Source: Terriglobia bacterium (GTDB lineage: Bacteria > Acidobacteriota > Terriglobia > UBA7540). From it: DNA of 40,440 nucleotides. The position numbers were made by a program, and so were the translations under genes. The notes below the pieces were generated by a model. The model had not been told where the DNA came from. It searched no databases and worked only from the letters and a program-made list of their open reading frames with translations. Position 1 is the first letter of the stretch. Each line of letters starts with the position of its first letter. The stretch lies in assembly GCA_030041095.1 (NCBI GenBank), contig JASHON010000076.1, positions 1 through 40,440 of the forward strand, read 5' to 3'. Of the stretch, positions 17,564 through 40,420 are shown in pieces.

Positions 17564-17881
17564 TCAATGGACTTTGATGATGACGATCGCGAACGTATAA
17601 AGCGCCAGAGACTCGATGAAAATGAGGCCCAGGATCATGAAAAGGAAGATCGCGGGACGGGCGCCTGGATTGCGCGCCACGCCTTCGCACGCGCTGCCTG
17701 CGGCCCTTCCCTGCCCGATGCCGCAGAGACCCGCAGCAATGCCCATGCCAATGCCAGCGCCGATTGCACTTAATCCTACACCCGTACCGGCCGTCGCATG
17801 CGCCGTGCCCTGTGCGAAAGCCGGGACGGCAGCCAGCAATCCAACCGCTGCCATGAACAACATCAGTATCTTCTGTAGCAC
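17564..17881 (-). CDS. atpE: ATP synthase Fo subunit c, with signal-like N-terminal extension
   Basis: The c subunit forms the rotor ring of F-type ATP synthase. After a signal-like segment (residues 1-23, FMAAVGLLAAVPAFA) come two membrane helices joined by the polar loop EGVARNPGARP. Helix 1 has the Gly-rich GAGIGMGIAAGLCGIGQG, and helix 2 has the ion-binding Glu90 in FIESLALY. Gln57, Glu90, Ser91 and Tyr95 match positions used in Na+-binding rings, but the usual Thr is Leu92. The GTG start at 17881 follows AAAGGAG. At 105 residues it is longer than the common 75-90 because of the extension. Confidence 0.93.
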   Translation of the reverse strand: MLQKILMLFMAAVGLLAAVPAFAQGTAHATAGTGVGLSAIGAGIGMGIAAGLCGIGQGRAAGSACEGVARNPGARPAIFLFMILGLIFIESLALYTFAIVIIKVH

Positions 17882-17921
17882 CTTGTTCTCCTTTGTTTCA
17901 GTCCGCGCTCCTGCCTTCGCG

Positions 17922-18662
17922 TTAGTGCTCCTTCTGAACCGCCAGGCGAATATAAAGGAAGGGCAGAATCATGAAAATATACGCTTGCAGAAAAGACTCA
18001 AAAACGTGCAGAGCCATGAAAATCCCAGGGAGCCCTATGGGGATCATCCGGGTGAAGATTTTCACCAGAATTTCGCCCGCGAGCATATTGGCGCCAAGAC
18101 GAACGCTCAGCGAAAGCATCCGCATCACGTTACTGAAAATTTCGACCGGCAGCATCAGAAAAGCAATCGCCATCATGGGACCGGACAAATGCTTCAGATA
18201 ACCCAGTGGACCGTGGCGCTTGATTCCCTGGAAATTGAAATGAAGGAAAACGAGCGTCGCGCAGCCTAGCGGCACGGGACCATGAGCCGTTGGGCTGTCG
18301 AGCGTCGGAATGAGGCCCATCAGATTGCATAAGCAAATAAAAACTCCAAGCGTGCCAACCAGAGCCACGTATTGCCGGCCATCCGGCCCGACAACCTCTT
18401 CGCCCATGTTACGCGTGAACTCCACAACCGCCTCCATCGCGAGCTGGAAGCGTCCAGGTTTTTCGACTGACAGCCGCGTCCGCAGGATCACTGCTCCAAC
18501 AATGATGACGAGCAGAACCAGGACTTCCTCAGCCACGTACTTAGGGATGGGCTGCGCGGGGTTGGCGGGCGGAAACCCGATCTTGACGAGCAAAAAGGTC
18601 ACCCAGCCCCCAACCAGCTTGTTCAGCAGCGCTGCAAACCAGAATTGATGCTGTCCAACCAT
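17922..18662 (-). CDS. atpB: ATP synthase Fo subunit a
   Basis: Subunit a forms the ion half-channels against the c ring. This 246-residue membrane protein has the essential Arg188 in LSLSVRLGANMLAGE, the preceding LPVEIFSN motif and the C-terminal FESFLQAYIFMILPFLYI helix. It starts three bases after the atpI stop and is followed 40 bases later by atpE. All core residues are intact. Confidence 0.95.
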   Translation of the reverse strand: MVGQHQFWFAALLNKLVGGWVTFLLVKIGFPPANPAQPIPKYVAEEVLVLLVIIVGAVILRTRLSVEKPGRFQLAMEAVVEFTRNMGEEVVGPDGRQYVALVGTLGVFICLCNLMGLIPTLDSPTAHGPVPLGCATLVFLHFNFQGIKRHGPLGYLKHLSGPMMAIAFLMLPVEIFSNVMRMLSLSVRLGANMLAGEILVKIFTRMIPIGLPGIFMALHVFESFLQAYIFMILPFLYIRLAVQKEH

Positions 18663-19357: not shown

Positions 19358-20821
19358 TCAGTGGAGACTGTCGAGGTAGGCGATCAAGGCCTGCATGTCA
19401 GCATCATTAAGGGGGAAATTTGGCATCCCGCCTGCCTTCATTCGGGCATTGGGATGTCGAATAAGAGTTGCCAGTTGTTCAGGGCTTAGCTTGGCGCCGA
19501 TTCCAATCAGCTTGACGGCCACGGCAGTTCCGGCCCCGCCTTGGCCGTGGCACATAATGCAACCATTGGAAGCGAAAATCTGCTGGCCGCGAGCGGCGAG
19601 CGGATTCGGAGGCACTGCGTTTGCTTTAAGCCCGGCTACCGCCAAGCTCACTGAGAGTTGCGGCTTGAACGGCAAATGCATAAAGGCCTGCTCGGCCTTC
19701 TCCTGTCGCGCAAGCTGGGCCGTCACAGCAGGGTCATGCGCGTCCGCACGGTAACTGACAATACCCAAAACGACGAGTCCAACAAGAACGAACGAAAAGA
19801 CGCCGACGGCCACCGGCCGCCGCCACGGGCGCCGCTCGAGCCGGCGATCATAGAACGGCAATCCCAACAACAAAACAGTGATGATCCCCGGCACAACGAA
19901 TATTCCGATGATCGTCCGAGTGCCTTCCCAATACTTGAGCCATTGGAACAGCGGACGGTAGTACCATTCCGGCCGGGGAATGAAGGCGGTATCTGCGGGG
20001 TTGGCCACCGGTCCCAGTGTTTTGGGAACAAAGTGTGCTAGCAAGCCCAGAATCGCGATCAACAGCAGCGCAAACAAGGCATCGAAAAGCAATTGCTTGG
20101 GATAGAACGTCTCCCAGCGCCCCGGCGCCGGGGCTACCGGGTCCAGAGCGGGCGTTCCTGCCGGCCCCGCCTTGCGAAATAACAGCAGATGCGCCGCAAC
20201 AAAGGCCAGCAGACACAAGGGAATAAGGAAAACATGCATCACGTAAAAACGTGAGACGGTGAGTGTATTCATCCCCTCACCCCCTCGCAAAGCCAGCTTC
20301 ATCCAGTTCCCGATCCACGGCACTTCGCTCATGATGTTCGTCCCGACGGCAGTCGCAAAGTAGGAACGCTCATCCCAAGGAAGCAGATAGCCGGTGAAAG
20401 CCATGCCCAGCACCAAAGCAAACAGGATGCAGCCGGATACCCAGAGCAGCTCGCGCTTGCCCTTATACGAGCCATACATGAACGTTTGCGTCATGTGGAT
20501 GACCAGGAGCACCACCATGACGGCTGCGCCGTAAGAGTGAATGCCCCGCAGGAACGCGCCGTCCGTCACAACTTTCGTAATATAAGCGACCGTCTTGTGC
20601 GCGTGATCCGCGGCAGGAACGAAGTAGAGCGCTAGAAAGATGCCGGTGACCACCTGGGAAAGAAGAAGAAAGAGTAAACCGGAGCCGAAAACATAGGACC
20701 AGCGCGCACCGCCAGGAATGCGCTCTTCAAAAAGCGTGCGGAGCGAGGCCATGTATCCCGTCCGTGCATCCAGCCACGCCGCGGTGCGCCCAGGCCCGCG
20801 TTCTTCCGTTCCGTTGTTCAT
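19358..20821 (-). CDS. Cytochrome b fused to a C-terminal cytochrome c domain (bc complex core)
   Basis: A 487-residue fusion protein. The b part has seven predicted membrane helices and two heme-ligand pairs, His95/His109 (x13 spacing) and His196/His211 (x14 spacing, as in cytochrome b6). The quinol-oxidation motif PEWY is at residues 284-287. A linker leads to a class I cytochrome c domain with CIMCH at 421-425 and axial Met466 in GGMPNF. The protein would move electrons from quinol through two b hemes, with the c heme as local acceptor. It lies seven bases after the Rieske gene. No separate c1 gene is present, so the fused domain probably replaces it. Confidence 0.9.
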   Translation of the reverse strand: MNNGTEERGPGRTAAWLDARTGYMASLRTLFEERIPGGARWSYVFGSGLLFLLLSQVVTGIFLALYFVPAADHAHKTVAYITKVVTDGAFLRGIHSYGAAVMVVLLVIHMTQTFMYGSYKGKRELLWVSGCILFALVLGMAFTGYLLPWDERSYFATAVGTNIMSEVPWIGNWMKLALRGGEGMNTLTVSRFYVMHVFLIPLCLLAFVAAHLLLFRKAGPAGTPALDPVAPAPGRWETFYPKQLLFDALFALLLIAILGLLAHFVPKTLGPVANPADTAFIPRPEWYYRPLFQWLKYWEGTRTIIGIFVVPGIITVLLLGLPFYDRRLERRPWRRPVAVGVFSFVLVGLVVLGIVSYRADAHDPAVTAQLARQEKAEQAFMHLPFKPQLSVSLAVAGLKANAVPPNPLAARGQQIFASNGCIMCHGQGGAGTAVAVKLIGIGAKLSPEQLATLIRHPNARMKAGGMPNFPLNDADMQALIAYLDSLH

Positions 20822-20828
20822 GAGGTGG

Positions 20829-21386
20829 TTAGGTTACGATTTCCTTGTTGGGCAGGAGATTGCGATAGTATTGGTACCGGACTTCAAGTTGGCCGTTGCT
20901 CAAGCGAAGCGGCAGTGTGTCCATGCCGCGCGGAGCGGGTCCGGCTAGATACTTCCCGTCCGGCGCAAACCGGCTGCCGTGGCACGGACAATAAAAAATC
21001 CCCTTCCCGGCTGCCCATTGCACATCGCACCCGAGATGGGGACATACTGCCGTGAGTACTTCCACGCCGTTCAGGGAGCCGTTGCGATTTCCCTTGGTCA
21101 CATAAATGGCCTTTTCAGACATGCCCTCTTGCCAGCCCGCCAATTGCATCACCTTGATGGTCTTGCGCGTGGGGTCAGAGTTCGGGGTGAACTGATCGAT
21201 GCTGCCCAAGCCAGACCAGCGAGCCCCGGATGACCCGCCAAAGATCGGATAAAGAGCAAAACGGACCAGCGGTATGCTCAGAAGCACTGCCGTGACGGCT
21301 CCGCCAATGCCCATGGCCCATCCAATGAATCTCCGCCGGCCCATCTTCGGCGTTATGGCGTCTTCAGGGGGCTTCAGGGCTTCCAT
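20829..21386 (-). CDS. Rieske [2Fe-2S] protein of the bc complex
   Basis: A 185-residue protein with a twin-arginine membrane anchor (GRRRFIGWAMGIGGAVTAVL, residues 16-35) and a Rieske fold. Cluster ligands are Cys115 and His117 in CPHLGC, and Cys133 and His136 in CPCHGSRF. Cys120 and Cys135 form the expected disulfide. GPAPRGMDTLPL closes the cluster pocket. It accepts electrons from quinol and passes them to cytochrome c. The ATG at 21386 is chosen because GAGGAG lies eight bases upstream. A longer frame to 21470 adds a charged, unlikely head. Confidence 0.92.
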   Translation of the reverse strand: MEALKPPEDAITPKMGRRRFIGWAMGIGGAVTAVLLSIPLVRFALYPIFGGSSGARWSGLGSIDQFTPNSDPTRKTIKVMQLAGWQEGMSEKAIYVTKGNRNGSLNGVEVLTAVCPHLGCDVQWAAGKGIFYCPCHGSRFAPDGKYLAGPAPRGMDTLPLRLSNGQLEVRYQYYRNLLPNKEIVT

Positions 21387-21498
21387 CTCATGACTCCTCG
21401 GAGCACATTGCAATTCCCGTTTAAGGCGCCTTATCGGTAAAACACGACATTCCGAACGGGTTTTTATCATACCAGACCGGCACCCGTTCCATCCACCC

Positions 21499-21519
21499 TG
21501 AGTGCTCGGCTTGCACTCA
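21499..21519. promoter_or_regulatory. Perfect 7-bp inverted repeat in the divergent Rieske/DsbA spacer
   Basis: TGAGTGC-N7-GCACTCA, positions 21499-21505 and 21513-21519, lies between the divergent Rieske and DsbA-like genes. On the minus strand a TATGAT box lies about 28 bases further on, toward Rieske. It has the form of a dimeric repressor or activator site. Confidence 0.4.
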
Positions 21520-21572
21520 AGGCCAGTCTCACGAAAGGTGGACAGCTACAAGAGGCGCGAAGCCAGGTCAAA

Positions 21573-21602
21573 TTGATTTTCTGGCCCAGAGTCCATTAAA
21601 AT
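21573..21602 (+). promoter_or_regulatory. Candidate promoter for the first DsbA-like gene
   Basis: TTGATT (21573-21578) and TAAAAT (21597-21602) are separated by 18 bases. Transcription would begin near 21609, giving a leader of about 47 bases that contains AAGGAG at 21641-21646. Confidence 0.45.
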
Positions 21603-21655
21603 CCAAATGCACGGCGTTATGGACGTGATAGGCAAAGGATAAGGAGTGTTGGCGG

Positions 21656-22759
21656 GTGATTCGGGACTTTAAGAAGGATCTCGTCGCTGTCGTGGCTGCG
21701 ATCACGTTGCTGGGTTTGCTGCCGGTCTCGGGAGTGACTGCCACCGGCCCGTCGGAATCCGCGCTTCGCGAGACGATTATCAGTTTCCTTAGGGGAAAAT
21801 ATGCCATTCCGGATACTGACCCGATTCAGGTAGGCCCGTTCGGAAGCTCCCAGAACCCTTCGTACTACGAGGTGACAGTTACCACGGTCGCGCAGGGAAA
21901 AAGCCAGTCGCGGGCTGTGAGCATTTCCAAAAACGGGCGATATTTCGCACTAACACCCATGTTTTATCTGGGCCCGAATACGGATGCCGATCTCCTGCGG
22001 GATACACGCGCCTTTTACCACGTACCTCCTACCTGGGATTTATCCCTGGGACCTTTCAAGCGGTCTGTTGTTCCGAATTATCTCGAAACAACAATGACCT
22101 TCCAGGACGGCGCTAAGAAAGGGGCGGCAACCCTCTTCGTGACGTCCAACAAGCAATATGGTGTGCTGAGTCCGGTGTACGTTCTGCGCGGGCCTGGTGA
22201 GATCGAGCGTATGATCGACACAACCGATCAGCCCTTCTCCGGCTCGCCCAACGCCCCGGTGACCATTGTGGAGTATGCGGATCTCGAATGTCCGGAGTGT
22301 GCGCGCATGCAACCGGAGCTGGAAAACGAAATTCTGCCCCACTACCCAAACAAACTTCGCATCATCTATAAAGAATTTCCGCTGCCGCCGACCATGCATC
22401 CTTGGTCTCACGAGGCGGCGGTTGCCAACGAATGCGTTTATCAAATCGATCCTCAAGCCTTTGTCCAATACCGCACGGCCATTTTTGCGCACCAGGACCT
22501 TATCAGTCTTGCCAACGTTCGGGATCAACTTCTTTCGCTGGGAGATCAGGCCGGCGTTGACCGGCTTAAGCTGGCAGCGTGCCTTGATTCCCAAGCCTCC
22601 CTCCCGCGGGTGAAGGCCGACGTGCGCGAAGGCCAGTTACTACAAGTCGACAGCACGCCAACGTTCTTTATCAACGGGAAGATCATGGTCGGCGGCCAAC
22701 CAGCGTCGAACTTTTACAACGCGATCAACGAAGCTCTCAGTGAAGCTGCTGCGAAGTAA
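21656..22759 (+). CDS. DsbA-like thiol oxidoreductase with a tandem unknown N-terminal domain
   Basis: A 367-residue exported protein. Residues 8-29 form a signal peptide or anchor. Residues ~196-364 form a DsbA-like thioredoxin fold (Thioredoxin_4/BdbD type) with active site CPEC at 212-215, cis-Pro loop VDSTPTFFING and a further Cys pair (NECVYQ, AACLDS). It would oxidise or shuffle disulfides outside the cytoplasm. Residues ~37-106 and ~111-178 are two copies of a ~70-residue domain also found once in the next protein, with pattern VGP..., DG-rich turn, FVS/T-N/D-G-Y. I cannot name this domain. GTG start at 21656, with AAGGAG nine bases before it. Confidence 0.82.
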   Translation: MIRDFKKDLVAVVAAITLLGLLPVSGVTATGPSESALRETIISFLRGKYAIPDTDPIQVGPFGSSQNPSYYEVTVTTVAQGKSQSRAVSISKNGRYFALTPMFYLGPNTDADLLRDTRAFYHVPPTWDLSLGPFKRSVVPNYLETTMTFQDGAKKGAATLFVTSNKQYGVLSPVYVLRGPGEIERMIDTTDQPFSGSPNAPVTIVEYADLECPECARMQPELENEILPHYPNKLRIIYKEFPLPPTMHPWSHEAAVANECVYQIDPQAFVQYRTAIFAHQDLISLANVRDQLLSLGDQAGVDRLKLAACLDSQASLPRVKADVREGQLLQVDSTPTFFINGKIMVGGQPASNFYNAINEALSEAAAK

Positions 22760-22873
22760 AACCTCGAAACTTGCCGGCGAATCAGTCCCTCCTATAGTCC
22801 CGTTACGCGGCTGGCCTCGCGCCGGTCTTATCAGCCGCCGTCGTTCGACTCAGGCTCAAGCAAGGAGGAATGG

Positions 22874-23764
22874 GTGACAAAAGTACTTTTCGCGGTCGTC
22901 CTGTTCGGCGCTACTGCGTTTCCTCAAGCGAAGGGCAAGCCTGGCGAGCCCGCCGCATCTGCTACCCAAGATCAGGCGACGCGCGCCAAGATTGCTACAT
23001 ACCTTCGTGATCGGTTTTCGATTGCGCCGTCTGCCACGGTCGACGTTGGGCCGCTCCGCCCCTCCATTTATTCAGGCTTTGATTTGACCACCGTAACGAT
23101 CCAGGACGGGTCCCAGAGGGAATCGTCGCAGTTCTACGTTTCCAAAGACGGGGATTATCTGGTCGAGGGAAACGTTTTCGGTCTGAACGATAACCCCCAG
23201 GTGGAAGTGGAGAGCCTCATCCATACTCAGGGAGCGGCGTCATCGGGCCCGGCTGACGCGCCCGTCACGATTGTCGAGTACGCGGACCTGGAGTGCCCAC
23301 ACTGTGCGGCCGAACAACAGTTCATCGAAAAGCAATTGTTGCCGAAGTACGGGGACAAGATTCGCATCGTCTACAAAGATTTTCCACTTTATACCATTCA
23401 CCCCTGGGCAGTTGCGGCGGCTATGGCGGAAGAGTGCGCGTTCCGGACCAACGCCGCGGATTTTCTCCCCTATCGAGACGCGATCTTTCAGAACCAGGAT
23501 AAGATCACGCCGTCCACGGCACGCCAGCAGTTGCTGGACTTTGGCACTCAGGTCGGGCTGGACGCGGACAAATTCAGCGCCTGCTTGAACTCCAAGGCTA
23601 CTCTGCCCATCGTTGAAGAGGCTTACCGTGAAGGTGAGGGGCTTGGTGTAAGCAGCACTCCAACGTTCTTCATCAACGGTAAAATGGTGTCCGGCGTCGC
23701 GCCCCCGCAGGTCTTCTTCAATATCGTCGACAGCGCGCTCGCCAAGGCTCAACCGGCGAAATGA
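22874..23764 (+). CDS. DsbA-like thiol oxidoreductase with one copy of the unknown N-terminal domain
   Basis: A 296-residue paralogue of the preceding protein. It has a short signal peptide (residues 1-17), one copy of the ~70-residue domain (about residues 37-104, with VDVGPLRPSIYSGFDLTTVT and FYVSKDGDYLVEG), then the DsbA-like domain with active site CPHC at 141-144, cis-Pro SSTPTFFING and the extra Cys pair EECAFR/SACLNS. CPHC is the classic DsbA oxidase site, while the neighbour has CPEC, so the two may differ in redox potential. The GTG start at 22874 follows AAGGAGG by five bases. A nearby ATG at 22870 is out of frame. Confidence 0.85.
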   Translation: MTKVLFAVVLFGATAFPQAKGKPGEPAASATQDQATRAKIATYLRDRFSIAPSATVDVGPLRPSIYSGFDLTTVTIQDGSQRESSQFYVSKDGDYLVEGNVFGLNDNPQVEVESLIHTQGAASSGPADAPVTIVEYADLECPHCAAEQQFIEKQLLPKYGDKIRIVYKDFPLYTIHPWAVAAAMAEECAFRTNAADFLPYRDAIFQNQDKITPSTARQQLLDFGTQVGLDADKFSACLNSKATLPIVEEAYREGEGLGVSSTPTFFINGKMVSGVAPPQVFFNIVDSALAKAQPAK

Positions 23765-28466: not shown

Positions 28467-28475
28467 CGTGGATAA
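28467..28475 (-). promoter_or_regulatory. DnaA-box-like site on the dnaA start codon
   Basis: The plus strand reads CGTGGATAA, that is TTATCCACG on the minus strand, an 8 of 9 match to TTATCCACA. The GTG start codon of dnaA is part of the box. It could allow autoregulation. Confidence 0.45.
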
Positions 28476-29808
28476 AGTCAGTTCCAGTCGCATGAATGCC
28501 TGGCAGGAAATTCTCAGTTACCTGAAAACCAGGGTAAACACACAGAGCTTCCAGACCTGGCTCAGGCCGACACGTCTGAGTTGCGCCGCTGGAGACACGC
28601 TCGTGGTGATCGTGCCGAACCGGGAATTCCAAAGCTGGATCCAGGAGAACTATGGAGTTCATATCCAGAGTGCCCTGACTGACCTGAAGTTGCCTTATTG
28701 CCAAGTATCGTACGTGCTCGACGAGGCCGGCGAGTGTAAGGCTGGCGCTTCAGCAAAAGCCGTCCAGGGGCGGCTTGATTTCGAATCCGCTGCCCACCAA
28801 CTCGATGCACGCTACACCTTTGATACCTTCGTTGTTGGATCCTGCAACCAGTTCGCGCACGCGGCGGCCCGCGCCGTCGCCCAGGCGCCTTCCAAGATGT
28901 ATAATCCGTTGTTTCTTTATGGAGGTGTTGGCCTTGGCAAGACGCATCTGATGCAGGCTGTGGGCCACACGCTGAAAAGCCAGTGGAAGGATATGCGCTT
29001 GGCCTATCTCTCCTCAGAAACCTTCACGAACGAAGTGATCAATTCACTGCGGTACGATCGTATGATCTCGCTGAGGGAGAAGTACAGGAACGTTGATGCC
29101 CTGCTCATCGACGATATTGAGTTTCTGGGTGGCAAGGAGCGGACCCAGGAAGAGTTCTTCCATACATTCAACGCACTTTACCAAGCCCACAAGCAGGTTG
29201 TGATTACGAGTGACTGCCCTCCTAAGGAAATTCCGGCTATCGAGGAACGTTTGCGCTCCCGGTTTGCTTGGGGTCTTACAGCCGACCTGCAGCCTCCTGA
29301 CCTCGAGACGAAAATTGCGATTCTTGCCAAGAAGGCTGAATTGCTCCGCGTACCCCTCCCGCAGGACGTTTCAGAGTTCCTGGCTTCAAAGATCAAGTCA
29401 AGCGTGCGCGATCTCGAAGGCGCTCTTACACGGTTGATTGCGTACTCTTCTCTCACTGATGAGCCTATTTCCCTGGATATGGCCCAGCAGGTATTGAGAA
29501 ACGTGGTTGATTTCGGGGACCGCTACGTCTCGATTGAATCTATCCAGCGCGGTGTGGCTCGCCATTTTGGCCTGACGATTACTCAGATCAAGTCGAAGAA
29601 TAACAGTCATCAAGTGGCGTATCCGCGCCAAATCGCCATGTACCTGGCAAAGCAACTGACACCAACGTCGCTGCCACAGATCGGCAGGGAATTCGGGGGG
29701 AAGCACCATACGACAGTCCTGCACTCCATCAATAAAATTGAGGAGTTAAGGAAAACGAACCGCGAATTGAACAGGATTATCAACAAGCTAAGAGATACTT
29801 TAAGCTAG
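28468..29808 (+). CDS. dnaA: Chromosomal replication initiator DnaA
   Basis: A 446-residue protein with all four DnaA domains: domain I (WQEILSYLKTRVNTQSFQTW), a short linker, AAA+ domain III with Walker A GGVGLGKT at 152-159 and Walker B ALLIDDIEFL (Asp215/Asp216), and domain IV with the DNA-binding signature GGKHHTTVLHSINKIEELR. It binds DnaA boxes and opens the origin. The GTG start at 28468 overlaps a DnaA-like box. An ATG at 28492 (residue 9) is an alternative. Neither has a strong ribosome binding site. Confidence 0.96.
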   Translation: MDKVSSSRMNAWQEILSYLKTRVNTQSFQTWLRPTRLSCAAGDTLVVIVPNREFQSWIQENYGVHIQSALTDLKLPYCQVSYVLDEAGECKAGASAKAVQGRLDFESAAHQLDARYTFDTFVVGSCNQFAHAAARAVAQAPSKMYNPLFLYGGVGLGKTHLMQAVGHTLKSQWKDMRLAYLSSETFTNEVINSLRYDRMISLREKYRNVDALLIDDIEFLGGKERTQEEFFHTFNALYQAHKQVVITSDCPPKEIPAIEERLRSRFAWGLTADLQPPDLETKIAILAKKAELLRVPLPQDVSEFLASKIKSSVRDLEGALTRLIAYSSLTDEPISLDMAQQVLRNVVDFGDRYVSIESIQRGVARHFGLTITQIKSKNNSHQVAYPRQIAMYLAKQLTPTSLPQIGREFGGKHHTTVLHSINKIEELRKTNRELNRIINKLRDTLS

Positions 29809-37747: not shown

Positions 37748-40420
37748 ATGGGACGCATCATGTCAAAGCGAATTCTGAGCTTATTTCGGAACCTTTTTCG
37801 CAAGCGCGCAGTCGAGCAAGAACTCGACGACGAGCTCCGTTCATCGGTGGAAGTGCTGACTCAGGAGAAGATGAAACAGGGACTTTCGCAACCGGAAGCA
37901 CGGCGAGAGGCGCTCATCGAACTCGGTGGGATCGAGCAAGTGAAGGAAGAGGTGCGCGCGGCAAGGGCCGGGCGCTTTCTGGAGGATCTCGCCCGGGACA
38001 TCCGTTTCGCATTCCGCACCCTGGCCAAATCTCCCGGTTTCACGACAGTCGCAGTCCTTACCCTCGCCCTCGGTATTGGCGGCACCAGCACCGTCTTCAG
38101 TTGGATTGGTTCAACCTTGCTGAATCCTATTCCGGGCATCGCAGACACCAGCGACCTGGTGAGTGTGATGCGGGGGACGATCAGCGAGCATCCTACGCCT
38201 CCGTTTTCTTATCCGGACTACGTCGACTTGCGGCGCCACAATCGAAGCTTTTCGGGCCTGATGGCCTATCACGATGATTTCGTGTCGCTCACCGGTACCC
38301 GCAAACCTGAACGAATTTACGGCGCGCTGACCTCCGCCAATTACTTCAAGGTGCTCGGTGTCAAGCCCGTTCTGGGGCGCGGCTTCCTGCCGGAAGACGA
38401 AACCTCGCCGGGAGGCGCTCCAATCGTGGTGATCAGTTACGCGTTCTGGCGAAGCCATTTCGCTTCAGATCCCTCCGCAGTCGGCCGCACGCTTCAGATT
38501 AACCGGCATAACTACACCGTGGTCGGTGTCGCTCCACCGCATTTCCAGGGGTGCACGACAGGGCTCCGCGACGACGTCTGGATTCCGCTGGTGATGGACC
38601 GCGAAGTTTGGGGCTTTAACCGGCTCGAAGAACGCGGTATTTTTTGGCTCACCGTGCTGGGAAGACTGCGGACGGGCGTCACTCGCGAGCAGGCCACGGC
38701 AGAAATGAATCCGCTGATGCAGCAGATCGCCGCCAGCACTCCCAACATCGAGCGAGGTCCCAACCAGATCACGCTGGATCCGCTCTGGCGCTCGCCTTTT
38801 GGGGCCAACGTCTATCTCTATCGAACGCTGCCGTTGCTGCTGGGTCTGGCGACGGTTCTGTTGCTGCTGGCGTGCACCAACGTCGCCAATCTGCTGCTGG
38901 TGCGGCTGGTGCCGCGCAGGAGAGAGATTGCCCTGCGCCTGGCCATGGGAGCCAGCCGACTACAACTGGTGCGCCAGTTGATGATCGAAAGCCTCGTGCT
39001 TGCCCTGGCTGGCGGTGGCGTCGCGATGCTGCTGACCAACTGGAGTGCGGGGACGTTTGCCAGCTTCTTTCCACCCACCGCGTTGCCGCTCACGATCAAC
39101 GGCCACGCCAGCCGTGGCGTGATGCTGGCCATACTCGCCCTCGCGGTTCTGGCCGCGGTCGTTTTCGGGACACTTCCGGCGCTGCGCACGTCGCATCTCG
39201 CTCCGGCGGCCGTGCTGAAAGAAGAGGAGGCCAGGGTGTCCGGTGGCATCCACCGCTCGCGGCTATCCAGGACCATGGTGGTGGCTCAGATTGCTCTCTC
39301 CCTGCTTCTGTTGATCGCGGCCGGCCTCCTCACTCGCAGCTTTGAGAAGGAACAAAGCGCCGACCCCGGTTTCGATCCGAATCATGTTCTGCTCGCTTCC
39401 TACGATCTTGGGTCGGTTGGCAACACGCGTGTGCAAGGAATCGCGTTTGACCGGCAACTCCTCGACCGGCTACGCGCGTTGCCCGGGGTCAAGTCCGCCG
39501 CGCTGGCCGACTTCTCGCCTCTCAGCCTCACGACGATTCACAGCGACGATGTGCTGCCCGAAGGCTACGTCCCCCGGCCTCATGAATCGATGGAAATCAA
39601 CAGAGCCGTTGTCAGCCCTGGCTACTTTCAAACCTTGCGCACTCCCCTCGTAGCGGGGCGCGGCTTTACGGACCATGACAGCCAACAGTCCCAGCCGGTC
39701 GCCATCGTCAACCAGGAATTTTGCCGACGTTACTGGCCGGGGCAGGATGCAGTCGGCAAAAAGGTCACCATCTACGGCCAGGCTCGGGCGGTGGTTGGTG
39801 TGGCTCGAAACGCCAAATATCGGCTTCTGCGCTACGGCCCGGAGCCGGTGATTTACCTCCCGATCTATCAGGACTATTACGGCCAGTTGACCATCCATGT
39901 GCGTGTCGCGGGCGACCCGGGAGCCTTTGCCGCCGCCGTCCACAGAACCGTTGCCGAGATGAATCCTCGCCTTCCCCTGTTCGATGTGACCACGCTCAAG
40001 GCCAGTATGCAGTTTGGAAGCGTCTTCGAGCGGCTGGCGGCAACGCTAGTGGGTTCGTTTGGATTTCTCGCTCTCGTCCTGGCCGCGATTGGCATTTACG
40101 GTGTGGTCGCATTTGCCACTCGTCAGCGAACGCACGAAATCGGCATCCGCATGGCGCTGGGGGCACAGAGGAGCGACGTTCTCAAGATGGTCCTCATCCA
40201 GGGGTTCAAGCTGACTTTAGTGGGCGTCGCCTTCGGCATTGCTGGTGCACTGGCGCTGACGCGTTTCCTGGCAAGCTTGCTCTATGGCGTCAAGCCCACC
40301 GATCCGCTGACGTTCGCGGCAGTATCGCTGCTTCTCACCGGCGTTGCGCTGCTCGCATGTTGGATTCCCGCCCGGCGAGCGGCGAAGGTCGATCCGATGG
40401 TGGCCTTGAGACATGAGTAG
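37748..40420 (+). CDS. ADOP-type duplicated MacB/FtsX-like permease
   Basis: A complete 890-residue protein with the layout of acidobacterial duplicated orphan permeases. An N-terminal cytosolic segment (about residues 1-75, with EQELDDELRSSVEVLTQEKM) is followed by two repeats, each of one membrane helix, a MacB-type periplasmic domain and an FtsX-like three-helix bundle. The first bundle has LLACTNVANLLLVRLVPRRR and LRLAMGASRLQLVRQLMIES. The second has YGVVAFATRQRTHEIGIRMA and ALGAQRSDVLKMVL. No ATPase gene is adjacent, which is why these are called orphan. The role is probably efflux or lipoprotein/peptide handling, not shown. An alternative start is ATG 37760. Confidence 0.9.
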   Translation: MGRIMSKRILSLFRNLFRKRAVEQELDDELRSSVEVLTQEKMKQGLSQPEARREALIELGGIEQVKEEVRAARAGRFLEDLARDIRFAFRTLAKSPGFTTVAVLTLALGIGGTSTVFSWIGSTLLNPIPGIADTSDLVSVMRGTISEHPTPPFSYPDYVDLRRHNRSFSGLMAYHDDFVSLTGTRKPERIYGALTSANYFKVLGVKPVLGRGFLPEDETSPGGAPIVVISYAFWRSHFASDPSAVGRTLQINRHNYTVVGVAPPHFQGCTTGLRDDVWIPLVMDREVWGFNRLEERGIFWLTVLGRLRTGVTREQATAEMNPLMQQIAASTPNIERGPNQITLDPLWRSPFGANVYLYRTLPLLLGLATVLLLLACTNVANLLLVRLVPRRREIALRLAMGASRLQLVRQLMIESLVLALAGGGVAMLLTNWSAGTFASFFPPTALPLTINGHASRGVMLAILALAVLAAVVFGTLPALRTSHLAPAAVLKEEEARVSGGIHRSRLSRTMVVAQIALSLLLLIAAGLLTRSFEKEQSADPGFDPNHVLLASYDLGSVGNTRVQGIAFDRQLLDRLRALPGVKSAALADFSPLSLTTIHSDDVLPEGYVPRPHESMEINRAVVSPGYFQTLRTPLVAGRGFTDHDSQQSQPVAIVNQEFCRRYWPGQDAVGKKVTIYGQARAVVGVARNAKYRLLRYGPEPVIYLPIYQDYYGQLTIHVRVAGDPGAFAAAVHRTVAEMNPRLPLFDVTTLKASMQFGSVFERLAATLVGSFGFLALVLAAIGIYGVVAFATRQRTHEIGIRMALGAQRSDVLKMVLIQGFKLTLVGVAFGIAGALALTRFLASLLYGVKPTDPLTFAAVSLLLTGVALLACWIPARRAAKVDPMVALRHE

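Follow-up and report, generated by a model that had tools for sequence, protein, structure and literature searches.

Among the closest described systems are DsbC and DsbG of E. coli, in which an N-terminal dimerization domain (DsbC_N, PF10411) and a helix precede a thioredoxin fold with the active sites CGYC and CPYC and, according to passages of PMC4597128, a Thr before the cis-Pro. In DsbC the N-terminal domain pairs the two subunits and helps to bind substrate, and in a clustering survey of 2015 DsbG/C-type N-domains precede catalytic domains of the DsbG/C/HP0231 type (both as described in parts of PMC4597128). Sections of the same paper present H. pylori HP0231 (DsbK) as a protein with a DsbC_N-type domain, a highly diverged relative of that of DsbG/C, before an oxidoreductase domain that stems from DsbG, carries CPHC and has Val before the cis-Pro; it acts as an oxidase without isomerase activity (PMC4597128).

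In a second group, comprising Proteus and Caulobacter ScsC, Wolbachia alpha-DsbA2 and Legionella DsbA2, a type-II DsbA domain lies behind an N-terminal oligomerization segment. To our knowledge, the N-terminal segments of ScsC and alpha-DsbA2 are unrelated to DsbC_N. Isomerase activity has been reported for this group (PMC5524982, PMC4597128; titles of PMC8900818 and PMC6450060), and removal of the oligomerization segment turns PmScsC from an isomerase into an oxidase (part of PMC5524982). The segment of Legionella DsbA2 is described as a coiled coil unrelated to DsbC_N (in a section of PMC4597128).

The locus studied here lies in a 40,440-nucleotide stretch of DNA from a Terriglobia bacterium (the window) and encodes two proteins, P0001 and P0002, whose architecture is that of a natural DsbC_N-DsbA hybrid. 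Chimeras of the DsbC N-domain and DsbA were reportedly engineered by Zhao et al. in 2003 (cited in PMC4960241 and PMC5524982) and, by the title of that report, gained chaperone and isomerase activities. They too join the N-domain of DsbC to a DsbA catalytic domain; in contrast to them, the hybrid in the window is natural, uses another type of DsbA and has the N-domain doubled in P0001. With E. coli DsbC and DsbG the two proteins share a homologous N-domain, the Thr-cisPro and, in the predicted models, the helix before the thioredoxin fold, and they differ in a catalytic domain of the Thioredoxin_4 instead of the Thioredoxin_2 family, in the active sites CPEC and CPHC and in the second N-domain of P0001. 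They resemble HP0231 in the diverged N-domain and, for P0002, in CPHC, but not in the origin of the catalytic domain or the residue before the cis-Pro. A coiled-coil segment of the Legionella DsbA2 type is not the case here, as the N-domains in the window consist of a helix and strands, like DsbC_N. On tandem or acidobacterial DsbC-type proteins we found nothing relevant in the open-access literature. The domain and the catalytic domain are both known; the combination is unusual and the doubling seemingly recurrent. A putative new domain is thereby removed, and the sharper point is that nature joined the DsbC dimerization domain to a DsbA-type part, like the laboratory chimeras, and doubled it, apparently more than once.

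Two adjacent genes with one repeated domain

Both open reading frames lie on the forward strand where the initial annotation had placed them, with 367 and 296 residues, and its view that a single type of domain, doubled in P0001 and single in P0002, precedes a thioredoxin fold was borne out by alignment scores beyond 1000 shuffles, a common predicted order of helix and strands and Thioredoxin_4 matches in both proteins (Table 1). By eye, P0001 has a signal peptide of about 29 residues and a putative GTG start, and P0002 a signal peptide and a GTG start preceded by AAGGAGG. Both proteins fell below all NCBIfam cut-offs (best NF041057, 91 and 103 bits vs 190 needed), and promoter and terminator scans stayed at about the level of chance (2 vs 1.0 and 1 vs 2.9).

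Smith-Waterman alignment of the segments in pairs (residues 34-108 and 108-180 of P0001, 34-106 of P0002) gave scores of 93 for copy 1 with copy 2, 73 for copy 1 with the single domain and 80 for copy 2 with the single domain; composition shuffles of the segments had a mean of about 23 (SD about 4.6-4.7), and 0/1000 reached any of the pairwise scores. In a BLAST search of the whole genome the single domain of P0002 matched both P0001 copies (E 7.7e-5 and 5.1e-4) and, besides itself and these, one place in a 400-residue frame on contig C141, a protein in which the family profile finds two copies. That profile was seeded with the three window copies and iterated over homologs; the domain boundaries in Table 1 are taken from it, and the matches of the three copies to it hold by construction. 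The repeat is real and extends beyond the window.

AlphaFold2 models, built on input alignments of sequences from the window and related loci, reached a pLDDT of 95.0 and a pTM of 0.87 for P0002, and 96.9 and 0.91 for P0001. Structure prediction, which the initial annotation had proposed as a check together with a profile-profile search, gave the three copies the same order of a helix and then strands: each copy is modeled as a 12-20-residue helix followed by a short strand, a pair of long ones and a further one or two that are short, and a short helix is predicted between the last copy and the thioredoxin fold in both proteins. The layout of DsbC_N (helix, sheet, helix into the thioredoxin fold) is thus present in both models. 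Foldseek matched the P0002 model over both domains to DsbC 1jzd_A (272 columns, rank 41, E 2.9e-7, TM 0.45) with an rmsd of 10.8, too high for the two domains to be superposed together as a rigid unit; VIA-align matched residues 106..337 of P0001 (copy 2 and the catalytic domain) to residues 13..214 of DsbC 4i5q_B (rank 48, Z 16.2, 172 residues, rmsd 4.1). These lists are filled by matches to the catalytic domain, and that no DsbC stands in the best 50 VIA-align rows of P0002 is no evidence.

Table 1. Features of the P0001 and P0002 genes, in positions of the window.
Feature	Position	Strand	Remarks
P0001, 367 aa	21656..22759	+	exported thiol-disulfide oxidoreductase (predicted): DsbC_N-like domain twice, then a Thioredoxin_4 (DsbA-type) domain
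P0001 DsbC_N-like copy 1	21773..21970	+	profile i-E 3.9e-22 (seed member), AlphaFold2 model; DsbC Gly49 position is Thr
P0001 DsbC_N-like copy 2	21992..22186	+	profile i-E 1.3e-21 (seed member), AlphaFold2 model; DsbC Gly49 position is Ser
P0001 catalytic domain, Thioredoxin_4	22223..22729	+	nearest solved structures BdbD, ScsC, alpha-DsbA
P0001 active-site CPEC	22289..22300	+	
P0002, 296 aa	22874..23764	+	exported thiol-disulfide oxidoreductase (predicted): single DsbC_N-like domain, then a Thioredoxin_4 (DsbA-type) domain
P0002 DsbC_N-like domain	22988..23185	+	profile i-E 3.2e-28 (seed member); Pfam DsbC_N E 7.5e-4; Gly49 equivalent kept
P0002 catalytic domain, Thioredoxin_4	23240..23710	+	
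P0002 active-site CPHC	23294..23305	+	

Identity of the repeated domain

The domain of about 70 residues, which had been left unassigned, is a diverged DsbC_N, the N-terminal dimerization domain of DsbC and DsbG. In the Pfam scan the P0002 match to it scored 19.5 bits, below the gathering cut-off of 25 bits, and the single-sequence scan of P0001 gave no DsbC_N match; over the whole genome PF10411 ranked P0002 best (E 9.7e-4, below the cut-off), the one other match (E 0.85) looking like chance. Among 84 distinct homologs of the domain, 63 had a DsbC_N match with an E of 0.1 or less, the best being 1.9e-9, and the other 21 had none; the runner-up Pfam family was met in 3/84 only, and the NCBIfam DsbC model matched 9/84. 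When ten relatives, hand-picked from the matches and not random, were held against the 25-bit cut-off, five exceeded it (L091 with 26.7, the single-copy protein of L005 with 27.5, L055 with 34.2, L057 with 35.4 and L076 with 47.7 bits) and the remaining five stayed below, with no match at E<=0.01 for the archaeal L009 and L013 and for L002. The match of L076, a tandem protein, comprises two DsbC_N stretches, and that of the L005 protein spans positions 7-63 of 70, helix included.

In a search of the PDB sequences with the family profile, the nine top matches, with E from 5.9e-5 to 0.018, were all DsbC, DsbP or protein disulfide isomerase II; one of them covers positions 21-74, and each of the eight others about 25 positions. 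The profile-profile search with hhalign matched the family to the N-domains of eight DsbC/DsbG sequences (picked from the matches, not random) with a probability of 97.4, an E of 1.1e-11 and a score of 55.8 over 45 columns, compared with a maximum of 18.3 (best E 0.0026) in 50 column shuffles and 8.3 (E 0.41) for the reversed control. The match lies outside the helix, and the sequence likeness to DsbC_N resides in the sheet half.

The initial annotation had regarded an immediate match to a known family as an argument against novelty; since the domain is a diverged DsbC_N, a known family is what was found, not at once but through homologs and profiles. Its suggestion that the domain binds substrate or mediates dimers is plausible by analogy with DsbC, where DsbC_N does both. 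A new domain is ruled out, and the notion of an unrelated one with a chance resemblance to DsbC_N, to which the sub-threshold Pfam scores of the window sequences themselves could be counted, is practically refuted and vanishingly improbable in view of the relatives over the cut-off, the 63/84 members, the PDB profile matches and the hhalign result against its controls.

The catalytic domain and its active site

By its matches, the catalytic domain is of the DsbA/ScsC/BdbD (type-II DsbA) kind and not of the DsbC/DsbG branch. Pfam matched Thioredoxin_4 with E 4.4e-30 in P0001 and 3.8e-29 in P0002, Thioredoxin_4 and DSBA being above their cut-offs and Thioredoxin_2 under its own (E 0.0087 and 0.058); the single-copy protein of L005 is barely above the Thioredoxin_2 cut-off (27.4 vs 27). 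The nearest structures by VIA-align are BdbD, ScsC and alpha-DsbA2 (Z about 23), the top matches of P0002 by Foldseek and phmmer are corynebacterial DsbA/TsdA, and searches of the solved chains with the full sequences of P0001 and P0002 gave chains of the DsbA type but, at E<=0.01, not a single DsbC.

The active sites are CPEC and CPHC, as had been read earlier, but the argument for a division of labor that had been drawn from their difference did not hold up, the contrast not being conserved. Among 64 distinct proteins, chosen from the matches and not random, with the partial archaeal L013 among them, 63 carry a CPxC motif and one carries CGAC; CPEC occurs in 1/64, and Thr stands before the cis-Pro in all 63 readable proteins, the 64th being cut by the locus end. 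The middle residues of ten adjacent pairs (tandem/single) are PE/PH, PT/PH, PT/PM, PM/PM, PS/PM, PT/PT, PT/PT, PM/PQ, PS/PV and PL/PM, which are identical in three of the ten and follow no rule. With the middle residues scattered in this way across the pairs, CPEC and CPHC give no ground for a division of labor, although the doubling could yet underlie one.

Distribution, doubling and gene order

The domain occurs in 59 of 101 related genomes, the bacterium's own included (35/39 of the same family and 24/62 others). Across the phylum it was found in at least 56 of 396 genomes, at least 46 of them from the class of the window; up to 14 candidates were scored per genome, which makes these counts lower bounds. 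The matches outside the class come from ten genomes (E 1.4e-9 to 3.6e-4), and the weakest may include chance. Six loci were set aside as repeats of the window or of a named record (L001, L003, L004, L051, L053, L056), which left 85 distinct domains, and L005 and L006 were counted as the same records as G014 and G030; the alignment and the tree, each of 84 rows, do not contain the partial archaeal L013. L013 matches the family profile with an i-E of 4.3e-6 over positions 26-64. Together with L009 and L014 it represents DsbA-type proteins of Archaeoglobi/Ferroglobus, the N-terminal region of which may be the same DsbC_N-like domain.

Two copies are present in 21 of the 64 distinct proteins, and the class has two further tandem proteins, L113 and L114, in another family; a search of L115-L117 for a first copy gave none. 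The doubling is conserved. The tree of the 84 domain copies (74 columns) is weakly resolved. On it the second-copy label changes four times, with three of the changes forced by well-supported branches, and both copies of L071/L076 share a clade with a single-copy protein (support 99/98), as do, with weak support (88/59), those of L067/L073/L074 with L062. These changes and mixed clades suggest that the doubling apparently arose more than once, unless the copies were homogenized by conversion. Copy 1 of the window's clade is on a long branch (0.7).

In ten genomes a tandem and a single gene adjoin on one contig, on the same strand in 10/10 and with the tandem gene first in nine, the order being reversed in G002. 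Five or more further genomes (G019, G027, G031, G034, G038) have a frame with two matches and a frame with one match on different contigs, and so the adjacency is not general or the contigs are cut. A conserved wider cluster was rejected on three loci of 8-11 kb (L005, L006 and L007, the first two being pair loci): none of the window ORFs of at least 120 residues, the pair itself and frames antisense to it excepted, had a match there with an E of 1e-10 or less.

Place in the disulfide system

The genome encodes four Thioredoxin_4 domains, those of P0001, P0002, the C141 protein and a VKOR fusion; three of the four proteins have DsbC_N-like domains and the fourth is fused to VKOR. The C141 protein, third of the DsbC_N type in this genome (L002, contig C141 of G000, about 37987-38967), is a tandem protein with long-branched copies and CPHC. 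The fusion (contig C42 of G000, 21026-22090; L104, L132) is a 600-residue frame with VKOR, a DsbA-type domain (CPFC) and a C-terminal tail that is rhodanese-like by eye. A CcdA-type protein (DsbD_TM, 50 bits) has a neighbor that looks TlpA-like by eye.

We consider it quite probable that, with a diverged DsbC_N before a DsbA-type part, P0001 and P0002 are exported oxidoreductases on the plan of DsbC, likely the isomerase/reductase arm. P0002 would dimerize in the manner of DsbC, with both active sites turned toward a cleft, P0001 would be its relative with a doubled dimerization/substrate module, and the separate VKOR-DsbA fusion would supply oxidation, with the redox direction of P0001 and P0002 presumed. 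That the two proteins are the isomerase/reductase arm is, taken by itself, a reading we favor with some reserve. A VKOR-fused oxidase beside three DsbC_N-type proteins would fit a split into oxidase and isomerase, and PmScsC turns from an isomerase into an oxidase when its oligomerization segment is removed. As HP0231 illustrates (PMC4597128), having a DsbC_N domain is no proof of isomerase activity. The CPHC of P0002 is the motif of DsbA and counts against an isomerase.

For P0001, the position of Gly49 of DsbC bears on the question. This residue, which we take to lie in the DsbC dimer interface, is invariant in the eight DsbC/DsbG sequences, and no paper on a DsbC Gly49 mutant was found in the open-access literature. 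Its equivalent is kept in P0002 and family-wide (35/42 single domains, 16/21 first and 20/21 second copies), but it is Thr in copy 1 and Ser in copy 2 of P0001; in the window's clade of five, all first copies have Thr or Ser and the other four second copies keep Gly. The loss in both P0001 copies would count against a simple DsbC reading of that protein. The two copies may instead pair within one chain. P0001 would then be a monomeric pseudo-dimer and have only one catalytic arm, the doubling taking the place of dimerization. The apparent recurrence of the doubling, the confident one-chain model predicted for P0001 (pTM 0.91) and the long branch of copy 1, as if freed from an old partner, are consistent with this; the loss of the Gly49 equivalent from both copies speaks against such pairing too, and we regard it as a tentative possibility. 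If the copies do pair within the chain, these proteins could show if two active sites are necessary for a disulfide isomerase.

It is in our view rather doubtful that P0001 and P0002 are dimeric or larger oxidases like HP0231, with DsbC_N for substrate contact and the CPxC kept oxidized. CPHC in P0002 and catalytic domains nearest BdbD and alpha-DsbA agree with this, and HP0231 itself combines a DsbG-like N-domain and CPHC in an oxidase (in passages of PMC4597128). Against it, the Val before the cis-Pro of HP0231 cannot be changed to Thr without abolishing function in vivo (according to part of PMC4960241), and Thr is the residue in 63/63 of the family; moreover, the genome already has the VKOR-DsbA fusion. 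Thr-cisPro, however, is also a feature of BdbD-like oxidases, which counts against the isomerase/reductase reading.

Returning to the isomerase/reductase arm, Acidobacteriota might have repeatedly evolved asymmetric isomerases, the P0001 tandem serving either as a scaffold to bring in P0002 or as a covalently linked pseudo-dimer, with one catalytic arm or a P0001/P0002 hetero-assembly at a DsbC-like cleft. No layout of this kind turned up in the open-access literature searched; this extension is speculative, and we would not expect it to hold.

Other genes in the window

Beside a Rieske-like gene (20829-21470), and divergent from the pair, lies a gene on the reverse strand (19358-20821) for a cytochrome b-like protein with, by eye, a C-terminal CxxCH heme-binding motif. 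A DnaA-like protein, also recognized by eye, is encoded at 28468-29808 on the forward strand, about 10 kb from ATP-synthase-like genes on the reverse strand (17564-18662).
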